From positions 1 through 42,422 of the forward strand of contig JAPLDO010000230.1 in NCBI GenBank assembly GCA_026391715.1: a stretch of DNA of 42,422 bases. Reading direction: 5' to 3'. Positions 18,380-40,006 of this stretch are shown piece after piece. This stretch comes from Bacteroidota bacterium (lineage in GTDB: Bacteria > Bacteroidota > Bacteroidia > Bacteroidales > FEN-979). The notes under the pieces are model-generated. The model worked only from the letters and a program-made list of their open reading frames with translations. It had not been told where the DNA came from and searched no databases. Within the stretch, counting starts at the first letter, position 1, and each line of letters begins with the position of its first letter. The position numbers were made by a program, and so were the translations under genes.

Positions 18380-18940
18380 TCAATTGAAGGTCGGATCTGC
18401 CGGGAAATTTGCCCAGATAGCATAATCCTTTCCCATGCTTTTCAGGTAATTGCTCCATAACGTTTCGGGGTGGTCATTGATGATTTCACTGACCGTTGTT
18501 TGGGATATAACCCAGGATTTTTCCCTGATTTCCTTGTCGAGCTGGTTGGGCGACCATCCGGAATAACCAAGGAAAAACCGGATATCATTTGGAAGCAGCT
18601 CTTTGGATTTCATCTTTTCGCGGATGACGTCAAGATCGCCTCCCCAATAAAGTCCTTCCATTACATGCAGACTATTGTCAATATCCGGACGCTTGTGCAG
18701 GTAAAACAGACTATCGGTCTTTACCGGTCCGCCAAGATAAACAGGTAACTTGTACGGCGGAAAATCTTTCAGAATTTCTTTCAGTCTGATTTCAATGGGC
18801 TTGTTGATGATCAGTCCGAATGTGCCTTCATCATTGTGCTCGGCGAGAAGTACAACCGCTTGTCGGAAGAAGAAATCGCGCAGCGCAGGTTCCGAAATGA
18901 GGATGGTTCCCTGCTTTGGTTTTATGACTGGTTTTTCCAT
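18380..18940 (-). CDS. YqgE/AlgH family protein
   Basis: A 186-residue protein matching the YqgE/AlgH (DUF179) family. It opens with KQGTILISEPALRDFFFRQAVVLLAEHNDEGTFGLIINKP, the signature region of the family. LPVYLGGPVKTDSLFYLHKRPD and then RFFLGYSGWSPNQLDKEI follow, ending in ETLWSNYLKSMGKDYAIWANFPADP. The length is the family norm. Structures are known for the family but its function is not established; the AlgH name comes from an alginate-regulation phenotype in Pseudomonas and should not be carried over. It is cytoplasmic and probably monocistronic. Its stop lies 12 bases from the T9SS gene 2 stop. Its start is 60 bases from the divergent murL start. Confidence 0.95.
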   Translation of the reverse strand: MEKPVIKPKQGTILISEPALRDFFFRQAVVLLAEHNDEGTFGLIINKPIEIRLKEILKDFPPYKLPVYLGGPVKTDSLFYLHKRPDIDNSLHVMEGLYWGGDLDVIREKMKSKELLPNDIRFFLGYSGWSPNQLDKEIREKSWVISQTTVSEIINDHPETLWSNYLKSMGKDYAIWANFPADPTFN

Positions 18941-19000: not shown

Positions 19001-20380
19001 ATGCTAAGATCAAACAGGCGCGACAGATTTCTGCAATTAAAGGAACAGTTTCCTTTTTTCGTATTTGAAAAGCAGGAATATTCGCTCGGTAGCCGCGGTC
19101 TCGAAATCCGGTTTACTTTTAATCTCGCTGACCAATATAAGTTTTACCCTACGCTTTTTATACCAAGGAAATCCTGTTTCCTGTCCGATGAAAATATTGC
19201 AAACCGCCTGCCCAATATTGTTTTCAACATCGGAATGATCGAACTGATCAGCTACTGGAAAGCAGCCTGTCCCCCCAATCTTATTATTCAGCCCTACGGC
19301 TTGTTTCCCGAACAGGTTAAATGGTGGAAACATCTTTATTTTCATGGGTTAGGCGAGTTTTTTTATCTGAATTCCATCCATTCTGATAAGGACACATTTT
19401 TGAATATTGAAGTTGCCTCCAAAAATCATCTTCCGCCTCAAAGTTATTCCCTCGATAATTCCATTATCATTCCGGTTGGCGGGGGAAAAGATTCAGCGGT
19501 AACGCTAGAAATACTTGGAGGTATGCCAGGAACTCTTCCACTGGTTTTAAATCCTCGGAAAGCCTGCATCGAATCAATGGTTGCAGCGGGATTTCCGGCG
19601 AACGATTATTTCGAAATCCTTCGAACCATTGATCCTCTGCTGCTTTCGCTGAACGACATGGGTTTTCTTAACGGGCATACTCCGTTTTCGGCGATTCTCG
19701 GCTTTCTTACCGTTCTAGCATCGGCGATGACCGGTAAAAAACATATTGCTCTTTCAAATGAATCAAGCGCCAACGAACCAACTATTCCGGGAACTGATAT
19801 CAATCATCAGTACTCAAAATCGTTTGCTTTTGAAACTGGTTTCCGCCAATATATTTCTACCTGGATTAATCCAGAAATCAACTACTTCAGTTTTCTGAGA
19901 CCCCTGCATGAGCTACAGATCGCGGCGCTTTTCTCCGGCTTTCCCAAATATCATCCTGTTTTTAAAAGCTGCAATGCAGGAAGTAAAACCGATACATGGT
20001 GCTGTAATTGCCCAAAATGCCTGTTCACATACATAATATTGGCTCCTTTTTTACCCGAAACCAGCCTTTACGCTATTTTTGGAAAAAACCTGTTATCCAC
20101 TGAAAAATTACTGCCCTGGTTTGAGCAGTTATCAGGATTGGCAGAGGAAAAACCATTTGATTGCATCGGCACGGTTGATGAAGTAAATGTAGCGCTCTGT
20201 GAAATCATCGGCAGAAACTCTTTGGATTCACTCCCTTTTCTTCTCGATTATTACCGGAATAGTCGTTTGTATCCACAATGTTTGCCAGGGAATTTTGAGC
20301 AAACTCTCCTCGCTTTTTCACCTCATCATCATTTGCCGCCCGAATTTGAACAAATACTCAAAAATGTAATCTATGGATAA
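19001..20380 (+). CDS. murL: MurL-like UDP-MurNAc-L-Ala-L-Glu epimerase
   Basis: A 459-residue protein that I assign to the MurL family. In Xanthomonas oryzae MurL epimerises the terminal L-Glu of UDP-MurNAc-L-Ala-L-Glu to D-Glu in an ATP- and Mg-dependent reaction. Seen here: an N-terminal domain of about 150 residues, a PP-loop-like nucleotide motif GGGKDS at 160-165, LSNESSAN near 251-258 followed by NHQYSKSFAFE at 268-278, FLRPLHELQIAALF at 298-311, and a cysteine cluster WCCNCPKCLF at 333-342. These match my memory of the family. The strongest support is context: its last 8 bases overlap the start of a MurD-type ligase, exactly the partner expected. The protein is cytoplasmic, with no signal or membrane segment. 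No MurI racemase lies in the window. The alternative is an unrelated PP-loop ATPase, for example a thiolation-like enzyme. Confidence 0.8.
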   Translation: MLRSNRRDRFLQLKEQFPFFVFEKQEYSLGSRGLEIRFTFNLADQYKFYPTLFIPRKSCFLSDENIANRLPNIVFNIGMIELISYWKAACPPNLIIQPYGLFPEQVKWWKHLYFHGLGEFFYLNSIHSDKDTFLNIEVASKNHLPPQSYSLDNSIIIPVGGGKDSAVTLEILGGMPGTLPLVLNPRKACIESMVAAGFPANDYFEILRTIDPLLLSLNDMGFLNGHTPFSAILGFLTVLASAMTGKKHIALSNESSANEPTIPGTDINHQYSKSFAFETGFRQYISTWINPEINYFSFLRPLHELQIAALFSGFPKYHPVFKSCNAGSKTDTWCCNCPKCLFTYIILAPFLPETSLYAIFGKNLLSTEKLLPWFEQLSGLAEEKPFDCIGTVDEVNVALCEIIGRNSLDSLPFLLDYYRNSRLYPQCLPGNFEQTLLAFSPHHHLPPEFEQILKNVIYG

Positions 20381-21773
20381 CCTGATCCGGGAACGTTTTG
20401 CCGAAAAATCCGTGGCGCTTCTGGGGTTTGGCAGAGAGGGGCAATCCACCTATTCACTGATAAGACGGGTATTGCCTGATTTGCCATTAACCATTGCCGA
20501 CGCCAATGAAAATGTAGTCGCAAATCCTTTGGTCGCCGGCGATAAAAACCTGCAATTTATCACCGGAGAAGGTTATTTATCGCATCTCCTTGAATTTGAT
20601 CTGATTGTTCGCTCGCCTGGAATTACTGTCTGGCAACTTACCGGTTTGCCGGGACAACCCGTAGCTGATGGTCAGATTCTTCGCGAGAAAATTACTTCTC
20701 AAACAGAATTGTTCCTCGAAAAGTACAGCGCTCAGGTAATCGGAATTACCGGCACTAAAGGAAAAAGTACAACGTCAAGTCTTATTCATCATATTCTGCG
20801 GTGCGCCGGTCGCGATGTTTTACTTGCCGGAAATATCGGCAACCCTGTTTTCCATATAACAGGGCTAATCACTGCGGAAACACTCATTGTTGTTGAATTG
20901 TCATCGCATCAACTGGAATTTCTGAAGGTCGCCCCTCATATTTCGGTTTTTTTGAATCTTTTTCAGGAACACCTCGATGCATACTCATCCTACGAAGCCT
21001 ATCAGCAAGCCAAATTAAATATTACGAGGTATCAGTCAGAATCAGATTTCATCGTATTTAACGCAGACGATAATCTGGTTTCCGCGCTAATCAAGCCGTT
21101 TCTTCGTTTTCGGAAGGGGTTTTCTTATTCGCTTTCAGTCAAACAGGAAAAAGGAACATCTCTTCGCGACGGACAAATTATGTTTTGCGATGGATCAAAG
21201 GAGGTTCCGGTATGGAAAATTCATCAGGATCGTTTCCTGCGCGGGGAGCATAATCTGAAAAACATAATGGCGGCAATTAATGTAGCAATGATTGTCGGTA
21301 TTGATCCCGAATTTATTGAAGAGGGAATTGCCACATTCAAGGGATTGGAACACAGGCTTGAATATGTTGGCGAATATAAAAAGATTCATTTTTACAACGA
21401 CTCCATTGCAACCATCCCCGAAGCATGCATCGAGGCAATCAAGGCAATACCTTTGGTTGATACGCTTGTGGCTGGCGGTTTCGACCGGGGAATTGATTAC
21501 GCCGGACTCGGCAGTTTTCTTGCCGGTTCCGGCGTAAGGAATATCATACTCATTGGCGCCGCCGGTTACCGCATCGGCAAAGAAATTCAACACGTTTCAT
21601 CGGGCAAAAAACAGCTTTTCTTTATAAACAGGTTTGATGATTTTGCGCCAATTGCCTTCCGCGAAACGCGTCCCGGAAATGTATGCCTCCTTTCTCCCGC
21701 CGCCGCAAGTTATGATGAATTTCAAAATTTCGAAGAACGTGGGAAAAGATTCCGCGAACTCATTCAAAGGTAA
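20373..21773 (+). CDS. murD2: MurD-type ligase, probably MurD2 (L-Glu adding)
   Basis: A 466-residue Mur ligase of the MurD type. The N-terminal Rossmann part holds LLGFGREGQST, the ATP P-loop GTKGKSTTSS starts at residue 127, and the central domain has GNIGNPVF, VVELSSHQLEFL, and LNLFQEHLDAYSSYEAYQQAK. The C-terminal domain contains GEHNLKNIMAAINVA, GLEHRLEYVG, NDSIATIPEA and LSPAAASYDEFQNFEERGKRF, as in MurD. The ATG overlaps the murL stop (ATGGATAA), so the two are co-translated. In organisms with MurL, the partner MurD2 joins L-Glu, not D-Glu, to UDP-MurNAc-L-Ala. I therefore favour MurD2; sequence alone does not fix the stereospecificity, and a classic MurD elsewhere in the genome would sharpen the call. 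The stop overlaps the next gene by one base. Confidence 0.85.
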   Translation: MDNLIRERFAEKSVALLGFGREGQSTYSLIRRVLPDLPLTIADANENVVANPLVAGDKNLQFITGEGYLSHLLEFDLIVRSPGITVWQLTGLPGQPVADGQILREKITSQTELFLEKYSAQVIGITGTKGKSTTSSLIHHILRCAGRDVLLAGNIGNPVFHITGLITAETLIVVELSSHQLEFLKVAPHISVFLNLFQEHLDAYSSYEAYQQAKLNITRYQSESDFIVFNADDNLVSALIKPFLRFRKGFSYSLSVKQEKGTSLRDGQIMFCDGSKEVPVWKIHQDRFLRGEHNLKNIMAAINVAMIVGIDPEFIEEGIATFKGLEHRLEYVGEYKKIHFYNDSIATIPEACIEAIKAIPLVDTLVAGGFDRGIDYAGLGSFLAGSGVRNIILIGAAGYRIGKEIQHVSSGKKQLFFINRFDDFAPIAFRETRPGNVCLLSPAAASYDEFQNFEERGKRFRELIQR

Positions 21774-22750
21774 TGATGAAAATAAACGGAGATTGCATGT
21801 CTTTCGCTGGTAAGTTTCTTTTAATCATCAGTGGCGCATTTTTTTCATCAGGTTTAACCGGGCAAAATTTGAATTATGAAAAAGTTGTCAATGGTTACAT
21901 TGAGAAATATAAGGGCATTGCGGTTAATGAAATGAACCTTTTTAAAATTCCGGCAAGCATTATTCTTGCTCAGGGTATCCTTGAATCAACTGCCGGTACA
22001 AGCAAACTCGCCGCGGATGCAAATAATCATTTCGGAATTAAATGTCATAAAGAGTGGTCGGGAAAGACCTTTATTCAGGATGATGAAACCAAAAATGAGT
22101 GTTTCAGAAAGTACAGCGATCCGTTGGAGTCGTTCCGCGATCATTCTCATTTCCTCACCCGGCGCGACCGTTACAAATCTTTGTTTACTCTTGAAATAAC
22201 CGATTACCAGGGATGGGCTCGCGGATTGAAAGCCGCCGGTTATGCTACTAATCCAAAATATGCCGACCTTTTAATCAAAACCATCGAAACCTATAAACTT
22301 CACAAATTTGATAAAGTTATGGCAGGAAAGCCAAAACCGGAAACCGTTCAGGCTTCTGATGTGGCATTGGGAGATGAAGTTCAGCTTGGGTTCAGGTTAA
22401 TCGGACAAGGCGCTACCGGCAGGGATATTTTTCTGAATAACCGCCGCAAGCTGATAATTGCCCAAAACGATGATAACGTCTATCTGATTTCCAGAGATTT
22501 TAATATCAGCGTTGAAAAGTTGCTTACCGCCAACGACCTGGCATTTGCCACTTCATTAAAACCCGGTCAAATCGTATATCTTGAACAAAAACGCCGCCGG
22601 GCAAGCGTGAAATATCACACATTCAGGGAAGGCGAAACGTTATATGGAATTTCCCAGCAATACGGCGTCAAACTGAAGATGATCTATAAGCGTAATAATC
22701 TACATGATTTGGTTGAGCCAAAGCCGGGAACGGTTTTAAAACTTAGATAA
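21773..22750 (+). CDS. Exported N-acetylglucosaminidase (GH73) with LysM
   Basis: A 325-residue cell-wall hydrolase. An N-terminal signal region (FLLIISGAFFSSGLTG, about residues 15-30) leads to a GH73/FlgJ-type glucosaminidase domain: FKIPASIILAQGILESTAGTSKLA (catalytic Glu in ILES), NNHFGIKCHKEW, FRKYSDPLESFRDHSHFL, and YQGWARGLKAAGYATNPKYADLL. The C-terminal half has LysM-type peptidoglycan-binding units: one weaker (ISRDFNISVEKLLTANDL, LKPGQIVYL) and one clear (YHTFREGETLYGISQQYGVKLKMIYKRN, PGTVLKLR). It should cut glycan strands in the periplasm. The start codon overlaps the murD2 stop (TAATG), making this the third member of a wall-synthesis operon; a second ATG follows immediately. Its 3' end overlaps the convergent DUF3352-like gene by 15 bases. 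Confidence 0.92.
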   Translation: MMKINGDCMSFAGKFLLIISGAFFSSGLTGQNLNYEKVVNGYIEKYKGIAVNEMNLFKIPASIILAQGILESTAGTSKLAADANNHFGIKCHKEWSGKTFIQDDETKNECFRKYSDPLESFRDHSHFLTRRDRYKSLFTLEITDYQGWARGLKAAGYATNPKYADLLIKTIETYKLHKFDKVMAGKPKPETVQASDVALGDEVQLGFRLIGQGATGRDIFLNNRRKLIIAQNDDNVYLISRDFNISVEKLLTANDLAFATSLKPGQIVYLEQKRRRASVKYHTFREGETLYGISQQYGVKLKMIYKRNNLHDLVEPKPGTVLKLR

Positions 22751-38623: not shown

Positions 38624-40006
38624 TTATTTGCGTTGAATTTGAGCCATCATCTCGGCTTCCATAACTATTTTGCTACCCACATAAGCAACCCCTTTCATAC
38701 AAATTAATCCACGTCGCATGGGAGCGGTAAGCTGATTAAAAAATACAATGGTATCACCCGGCACTACCTTATTCCTGAATTTTACGCTGTCAATTTTCAC
38801 GAAAAGGGTATTGTAATTCTGAGGATCGTCAACCATGTTTAATGCCAGAATTCCGCCTGTCTGCGCCATTGCCTCAATCTGGATAACTCCTGGTAAAACC
38901 GGCTCATCAGGAAAATGACCGACAAAGAAAGTTTCATTTATGGTTACGTTTTTCACGCCCACTACATAATCCTTGCCCATTTCAAGGATCTTATCAATAA
39001 AAAGGAATGGCGGACGGTGTGGAAGGATTTCCTTGATCTGATTGATGTTATAAAGTGGCGTTTTATTCAGGTCGAATTTTGGACCTTCTTCATGCCTGCG
39101 CTCTTTCAGCATCTGTTTTTTAATCATTCTGGCAAATTGCACATTGGAATAATGTCCGGGGCGCGTTGCAATAATATGTCCCTTGATAGGCATTCCAACA
39201 AGGGCGAGGTCTCCCACAACATCAAGAAGTTTGTGACGCGCCGGTTCATTAGGAAATTGCAATTCGAGGTTGTTGAGGATTCCTTCTCTTAATACCTCTA
39301 CTTTCGGTTTGTTAAAAAGATGGGCAAGGCGATCCAGCTCCTCGCGCGACATTTCACGGTCAACAAAAACGATGGCATTGCTAAGATCGCCGCCTTTTAT
39401 CAGATTATTGTTGACGAGATATTCAAGTTCATGCAGAAACACGAATGTGCGACAGGTGGCAAAATCATCTTTGAACCGTTTGATGTGATTGAGAGTGGCA
39501 TTCTGGGAGCGAAGGATTTTAGATTCATAATCAATCATTACCGAAACCCTGAATTCCGTTGAAGGAATGGCAATGAGTTCCACCTTTTTTTCTGTATCCA
39601 CAAATGTGATGTTCGAGGTAATCTCACAGTAGCTGCGCAAAGCTTTTTGCTCAATAATCCCCGCCGACTCAAGAGCCTCAACATAGTATCTGGAACTTCC
39701 GTCGAGAATAGGAGACTCCGATTGGTTCATTTCAATCAGGGCATTGTCAATCTCCAAACCCGCTAAAGCTGCCAGAACATGCTCCACAGTGTCAATGCGA
39801 ACTCCATCTTGTTCGATGCGTGTTCCGCGCGAAACATTGTCAACATCAGCGTCAACGAGGGTTCCGGTATTCAGGTCAACCCTGCGAAATTTATATCCGT
39901 AATTATCCGGAGCCGGTTTAAAAGTAAGGATAACTTCATTTCCGGTATGTAAACCAACGCCGGAAACACTCACCGCTTCCCTGATTGTTCTCTGCCTTTC
40001 ACTCAT
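38624..40006 (-). CDS. lpxC-fabZ: Bifunctional LpxC deacetylase / FabZ dehydratase
   Basis: A 460-residue fusion. Residues 1-300 are LpxC, the Zn-dependent UDP-3-O-acyl-GlcNAc deacetylase: GLHTGNEVILTFKPAP, the zinc motif IDTVEHVLAALAGL (His76), and ARHKLLDVVGDLALVG with further metal ligands. Residues about 320-460 are FabZ, the 3-hydroxyacyl-ACP dehydratase, with LPHRPPFLFIDKI and GHFPDEPVLPGVIQIEAMAQTGG holding the catalytic His and Glu. The fusion is known from Bacteroidota and links lipid A to fatty-acid synthesis. The ATG at 40006 lies 8 bases inside the end of lpxD, so expression is coupled, and lpxA follows after 9 bases. Confidence 0.98.
   Translation of the reverse strand: MSERQRTIREAVSVSGVGLHTGNEVILTFKPAPDNYGYKFRRVDLNTGTLVDADVDNVSRGTRIEQDGVRIDTVEHVLAALAGLEIDNALIEMNQSESPILDGSSRYYVEALESAGIIEQKALRSYCEITSNITFVDTEKKVELIAIPSTEFRVSVMIDYESKILRSQNATLNHIKRFKDDFATCRTFVFLHELEYLVNNNLIKGGDLSNAIVFVDREMSREELDRLAHLFNKPKVEVLREGILNNLELQFPNEPARHKLLDVVGDLALVGMPIKGHIIATRPGHYSNVQFARMIKKQMLKERRHEEGPKFDLNKTPLYNINQIKEILPHRPPFLFIDKILEMGKDYVVGVKNVTINETFFVGHFPDEPVLPGVIQIEAMAQTGGILALNMVDDPQNYNTLFVKIDSVKFRNKVVPGDTIVFFNQLTAPMRRGLICMKGVAYVGSKIVMEAEMMAQIQRK

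Follow-up and report, generated by a model that had tools for sequence, protein, structure and literature searches.

The closest described counterpart of the genes considered here is the adjoining murD2-murL pair of Xanthomonas oryzae (XOO_1320/XOO_1319). The available text of PMC8788868 places MurL in gamma- and alphaproteobacteria and in actinobacteria, and that of PMC5808125 mentions distant relatives in a fungus, in cyanobacteria and in an amoeba. Here we describe such a pair from the order Bacteroidales, located on a 42,422-nucleotide contig (JAPLDO010000230.1, assembly GCA_026391715.1; this whole stretch is called the window below) of a Bacteroidota bacterium. We are confident that this operon provides a route to D-Glu that avoids free D-Glu, in which MurD2 would attach L-Glu and MurL would invert it, the glutamate racemase MurI being gone. 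The pathway as such is already known; new are its spread into the Bacteroidales, fusions of the two genes, a QueC-like fold predicted for MurL and the retention of one domain of the classical MurD.

Three genes lie on the forward strand (Table 1), murL overlapping murD2 by 8 bases, with the murD2 start inside murL, and murD2 overlapping the third gene by 1 base, all as described in the original prediction, which had been made from the sequence of the window alone. The first gene matches the NCBIfam MurL model NF041275 over profile positions 10-444 of 447 (E 2.1e-71, 240.7 bits) and no other PP-loop family fitted it better, in agreement with the proposed MurL identity. The motifs that had suggested this identity, GGGKDS (from residue 160), NESSAN (253), NHQYSK (268) and WCCNCPKC (containing Cys 334, 337 and 340), are all present, and since the profile match extends nearly end to end they are not chance occurrences.

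The second gene had been taken for a MurD-type ligase, and it scores 295.6 bits against the TIGR01087 murD model (cut-off 212). According to the available text of PMC8788868, D182 and K348 of E. coli MurD correspond to E197 and R358 in X. oryzae MurD2, reverting both residues together turns the latter enzyme to D-Glu, and the substitution K319T allows E. coli MurD to accept L-Glu. Our alignment comprised 28 canonical MurDs of MurL-negative and 32 of MurL-positive genomes together with 29 MurD2 proteins (33 loci tried, four of which yielded nothing above 380 amino acids (aa)). At the positions of D182, K348 and K319 all 60 canonical enzymes read D/K/K and all 29 MurD2 proteins, including that of the window, read E/R/I, while all 89 sequences share Lys115, Glu157, His183, Lys198 and Asp317. 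This supports the assignment of an L-Glu-ligase (MurD2) signature to the second gene, with L-Glu as its predicted substrate.

No MurI was detected with either PF01177 or TIGR00067 in the host genome (5.02 Mb in 256 contigs, 98.99% complete), which is thus not one that combines murI with a single D-Glu-specific MurD. The best match to a D-amino-acid transaminase model reached 38 bits (cut-off 277) in a 354-codon open reading frame (ORF) whose length makes a branched-chain transaminase more likely; the model is strict, only one of 14 control genomes passing its cut-off. Profile searches found no full-length MurD other than the MurD2 of the window, which should therefore perform the ligation step with its L-Glu residues, and none of the eight TIGR01087 matches in the genome looks like the N-terminal-only partner of a split MurD.

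Profile searches of 198 genomes of the host's order gave MurL matches in 68, one of which (G446) is a fragment at a contig edge, leaving 67 with a full-length gene. TIGR00067 was above its cut-off in 120 of the 198, namely in none of the 67 MurL genomes and in 120 of the 131 others. From this mutual exclusion we conclude that in a large share of the Bacteroidales the MurL/MurD2 route very probably takes the place of MurI. The expected extension of the range of MurL to Bacteroidota is therefore real and was even understated, about one third of the order sample having the gene. Of 395 genomes sampled across the phylum, the host's alone had a full-length MurL match, two others reaching 20-22 bits. 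Named genomes were also scanned with an alignment of MurL; the best 80 of at least 575 relatives were kept, and the neighbourhood counts given below come from these. Nearly all of the 80 are metagenome-assembled genomes titled Bacteroidales, Bacteroidetes, Bacteroidota or Bacteroidia, some of them from lakes, sediments, rumen or faeces; the nearest relatives (62-64% identity) are titled Bacteroidales or Bacteroidetes. Both MurI above cut-off and full-length MurL are missing from nine genomes of the order sample (G468, G481, G510, G518, G519, G546, G570, G578 and G584); all that G468 has of MurL is a short similar piece interrupted by a stop.

How MurL might work is suggested by its predicted fold. 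The window's protein matches no Pfam family at E <= 0.001 and, searched as a single sequence, no solved structure at E <= 1. Its homologues show weak Pfam matches to QueC, PAPS-reductase and DUF6395; PF06508, the QueC family, was hit by 7 of 27 MurL members with a best E of 0.027, short of significance. The MurL profile matches the PP-loop enzyme TtuA in the GGGKDS region (E 9e-4), all six residues of which are invariant in 45 aligned MurL sequences, as are C324, C334, C337 and C340; the corresponding QueC motif is C(x)8CxxCxxC in the available text of PMC13329287. Likeness to QatC and QueC appeared only when Foldseek candidates were realigned, with 9-18% identity in the structural alignments. 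MurL is thus predicted to have a QueC/QatC-like fold with PP-loop and four-cysteine motifs, which fits its ATP-to-AMP chemistry. After ligation of L-Glu by MurD2, MurL would make an adenylate of the Glu alpha-carboxylate, converting ATP to AMP, the alpha-carbon would then be inverted to the D form and the adenylate hydrolysed afterwards, so that the operon would supply the D-Glu of peptidoglycan. For the stereochemistry of the substrates and for the adenylate step, the proposal draws on the homologous pair of X. oryzae. A QueC-like fold would offer a concrete catalytic hypothesis for an enzyme whose mechanism is called unclear in the available texts of PMC8788868 and PMC5808125.

Several observations weigh against this interpretation. 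The score of the first gene lies far under the curated equivalog cut-off of 700 of NF041275; this model is named for the Xanthomonadales and its cut-off was set for that group, so the low score bars equivalog membership and not MurL function. Foldseek with the predicted MurL model alone gave no match at E <= 0.001. A Fisher test on the counts of MurL and MurI (p 1e-41) overstates the independent evidence because both genes follow phylogeny. Weak matches to the MurI model, of 25-43 bits, occur in 10 of the 67 MurL genomes. PF01177, the Asp/Glu racemase superfamily, which is matched in 137 of the 198 genomes, is matched in 14 of the 67, the host not being among them; these proteins are mostly 230-250 aa long, none exceeds the MurI cut-off, and we infer that those of this length are other racemases of the superfamily. 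Transaminase matches above 60 bits were found in 22 of the 67, again not in the host. Finally, a full-length canonical MurD persists in 36 of the MurL genomes (32 fetched, that of G491 recognised by score and three cut by contig ends), the active site being intact in the 32 aligned, a fact that simple replacement fails to explain. With about half of the MurL genomes in this state, the MurL/MurD2 homologues could act elsewhere, for instance on a modified peptide, while an unrecognised racemase or transaminase supplies D-Glu to a ligase that uses it, and the racemase-like and transaminase matches just listed would suit such an arrangement. We consider it very unlikely, however, as the host genome has neither a PF01177 match nor a second full-length MurD that could relieve MurD2 of the ligation, and as MurL and MurI above cut-off exclude each other throughout the 198 genomes. 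If MurL and MurD2 do replace MurI, the canonical MurD of the 36 genomes perhaps serves D-Glu arising from a transaminase or from recycling; a transaminase match above 60 bits is present in 16 of these 36 as compared with 6 of the 31 other MurL genomes.

In many lineages the canonical murD would have been pared down to its C-terminal domain and retained as a gene of its own. On contig C162 of the host, in the division and cell wall cluster, the place of murD between mraY and ftsW is taken by an intact ORF of 182 codons that matches the C-terminal domain alone (PF02875; TIGR01087 profile positions 264-440 of 441). Because this stub lies on another contig than the window it had been missed by the original prediction, whose question about a second murD thus has a double answer: there is no other full-length gene, in keeping with MurD2 as sole ligase, and there is a C-domain stub elsewhere in the genome. 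Stubs were sought in those 34 MurL genomes in which no canonical MurD was obvious, followed by a check of the neighbouring genes; genomes scoring a full-length canonical MurD were left out. Stubs were found in 27 of the 67 MurL genomes (25 aligned, plus G574 and G464), whereas mraY has no adjoining murD or stub in G470 and G572 and was not found in G414 and G521. Among the 131 other genomes a murD match above the full-length cut-off is present in 126; in the remaining five there is a stub-like ORF (G409), an N-terminal murD part cut by a contig end (G579 and G446) or no mraY found (G411 and G562). The stub of G409 (98% complete, about 10 contigs; L229:2592-3227) is also a MurD C-domain between mraY and ftsW, in a genome in which the searches found neither MurL nor MurI nor a full-length MurD. 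At the loci of G572 (L227) and G470 (L228), which belong to one family, mraY lacks murE and murD neighbours, and murL is near mraY in L227. In the division cluster at L012:7430-10018 a single 862-aa frame joins MurG and MurC, as judged by eye, which could be a fusion or an assembly slip.

The stub looks to be under selection. The other stubs are 29-68% identical to that of the host, and all 27 stay open over about 180 codons, with a length of exactly 182 aa in 14 of 24 (the length of 245 and the negative gap recorded for L065 are artefactual, its start being unclear). All 25 aligned stubs retain D317, two Trp and other residues, and 24 of the 25 retain H301. On stubs trimmed to the start, dN/dS was 0.08, 0.13 and 0.35 in the three of ten pairs with measurable dS, the other seven being saturated with dN of 0.18-0.46. 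A dying remnant, or a spacer that merely couples the translation of mraY to that of ftsW and has no function as a protein, would account for some other properties: the C-domain of stubs evolves faster than that of full-length MurDs (ratio of C-domain to MraY+FtsW distance 1.64 versus 0.92), K348 of the D-Glu site persists in only 7 of 25, the gaps to mraY are short and two genomes of one family, G470 and G572, have neither murD nor stub at mraY. In view of the maintained reading frame, length and residues we regard a remnant or spacer as unlikely, if by no means far-fetched.

Truncation of murD seems to have occurred several times. In a tree of MraY+FtsW from 81 genomes the stub state changes 12 times, nine of these changes being forced by well-supported branches; L049 and L054, two of the 27 rows labelled T (stub) in the MurD alignment but really full-length murD genes cut by a contig end, were left out together with L047, L078, L099 and L106, all six lacking MraY or FtsW. 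An approximately unbiased (AU) test on 46 MurL genomes, with eight long-branch stubs left out, rejects a single stub clade (p 1e-49), and both states of murD occur within five families, two of these within one genus (g206, g221). The alternative that the stub arose once and spread among families by horizontal transfer or recombination draws on the C-domain itself: a single clade of stubs is not rejected when only its alignment is tested (AU p 0.066, nine long-branch stubs left out), and when six stubs were compared with 32 MurDs the MurD of the sister genome ranked 1, 3, 4, 5, 17 and 22, being closest for one stub only (L049 and L054 still bear the T name in this comparison). The start is also shared, 20 of 25 stubs beginning at one Met that in full-length MurD lies at the end of the central domain, and the other five nearby or at an unclear position. 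Yet the C-domain tree joins two stubs to full-length genes, T_L058 to its sister B_L080 at 97 and T_L050 to B_L102 at 83, and one stub clade appears in 0 of 200 bootstrap trees (L049 and L054 count as full-length in this tree and its AU test and are omitted from the residue comparison). The case for repeated truncation comes mainly from the neighbour-gene tree, and a single origin with transfer appears rather improbable.

The Met at which most stubs begin is present in 31 of 32 MurDs of MurL genomes, mostly followed by T-L/I-E, and in 20 of 28 from MurL-negative genomes; counted from this Met, 182 aa remain up to the C-terminus in 31 of 31 and 17 of 20, respectively. Synonymous AT enrichment in the 32 murD genes of MurL genomes peaks at this Met (mean z 1.57 in a centred window, 29 of 32 positive), the highest seven of 433 columns being the Met and the six that follow. 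The 28 genes of MurL-negative genomes reach their maximum at the true 5′ start, with a z of 0.67 at the internal site. With codon shuffling, z at the Met is 1.42 +/- 0.21 in 31 genes of MurL genomes against -0.34 +/- 0.11 at 93 Mets elsewhere in these genes, and 0.44 +/- 0.29 in 20 MurL-negative genes. The AT peak lends moderate support to an internal start yielding the C-domain as a second product. On the other hand, the true 5′ start of murD in MurL genomes is little enriched (0.02-0.34), so AT enrichment is not a clean marker of starts; the peak could also stem from an internal promoter for ftsW or from regional bias, and the genes, being related, do not count as independent. We tentatively propose, as a possibility we would not back at even odds, that murD of MurL-bearing Bacteroidales is a two-product gene whose internal Met yields, in addition to the ligase, a 182-residue C-domain protein with a task of its own in wall synthesis or division, and that after the takeover of catalysis by MurL/MurD2 its 5′ part was deleted repeatedly and independently, so that only the C-domain product remained.

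The neighbourhoods of the best 80 relatives identify yqgE / murL-murD2 as the conserved unit and the GH73 gene as a local neighbour. With room on the contig, murD2 follows murL or is fused to it at 68 of 73 loci and yqgE lies divergent upstream at 61 of 78, while the GH73 gene is found downstream at 10 of 69, these being the closest relatives. The third gene does encode a glucosaminidase with LysM, a domain search giving PF01832 and two LysM stretches; its supposed role in tying precursor synthesis to wall remodelling is not supported by these counts, and it was rejected as a member of the MurL/MurD2 system, outside which it probably stands. Natural MurL-MurD2 fusions occur at L186, L192, L203, L209 and L221 (901-996 codons between stops) and further ones in G472, G574 and G499, all fusion ORFs having about 885-996 codons; this suggests that the dipeptide intermediate may be handed over directly. 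Scans of the operon gave fewer promoters than expected by chance (4 versus 9.4) and 9 terminators versus 5.5 expected. The window contains no match to tRNA or Rfam families, and positions 38624-40006 encode an LpxC-FabA-domain fusion protein.

Table 1. Positions of the operon, its divergent neighbour and selected motifs and codons in the window.
Feature	Position	Strand	Evidence
murL (gene 1)	19001..20380	+	459 aa ORF; NF041275 match
murD2 (gene 2), predicted L-Glu-specific UDP-MurNAc-L-Ala ligase	20373..21773	+	466 aa; TIGR01087 295.6 bits; E199/I345/R372
GH73-LysM cell-wall hydrolase (gene 3), local neighbour	21773..22750	+	325 aa; PF01832 E 2.1e-37
yqgE/algH (DUF179), divergent from murL	18380..18940	-	PF02622 158.7 bits
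GGGKDS PP-loop (ATP pyrophosphate) motif, MurL residues 160-165	19478..19495	+	invariant in 45 aligned sequences
C(x)9CxxCxxC, MurL C324/C334/C337/C340, candidate zinc site as in QueC/QatC	19970..20020	+	4 Cys invariant, 45 aligned
MurD2 Glu199 codon (= E. coli MurD Asp182; X. oryzae MurD2 Glu197)	20967..20969	+	alignment
MurD2 Ile345 codon (= E. coli MurD Lys319)	21405..21407	+	alignment
MurD2 Arg372 codon (= E. coli MurD Lys348; X. oryzae MurD2 Arg358)	21486..21488	+	alignment

If the proposed pathway is correct, an early essential step of cell wall synthesis uses a different chemistry across a large part of the order, in which, to judge by record titles, rumen and faecal genomes are among the MurL bearers, and the order would be divided in its response to inhibitors aimed at MurI or at MurL/MurD2. 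The retained C-domain suggests a second, non-catalytic function of a classical Mur ligase that becomes visible only where catalysis is redundant. A literature search (titles and starts of abstracts in one library) did not reveal any publication about MurL in Bacteroidales, a connection of MurL with QueC or a stand-alone MurD C-domain; a neurodegeneration review (PMC11464490) contains both the words MurL and Bacteroidales.

Compared with the X. oryzae pair, the window has in common the adjoining genes, the full-length match to the MurL profile, the determinant residues of MurD2 and the lack of MurI. It differs in belonging to the Bacteroidales, outside the proteobacterial and actinobacterial range given in the available text of PMC8788868, and in a MurL score of 240.7 bits against a cut-off of 700. 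In the window the two genes overlap, and in some relatives they are fused. The Bacteroidales loci moreover lie beside yqgE, and the canonical murD is kept whole or as a stub. With the canonical MurD of the E. coli division (dcw) cluster the stub shares the C-terminal domain and the position between mraY and ftsW; it lacks the N-terminal and the ATP-binding central domains and mostly also K348 and the HN motif. The QatC, QueC and Cap9 proteins (PF06508), finally, are at 9-18% identity distant from MurL, only 7 of 27 members of which match their family, and the substrate expected for MurL would be the UDP-MurNAc-dipeptide, with no involvement of ammonia or deazaguanine.

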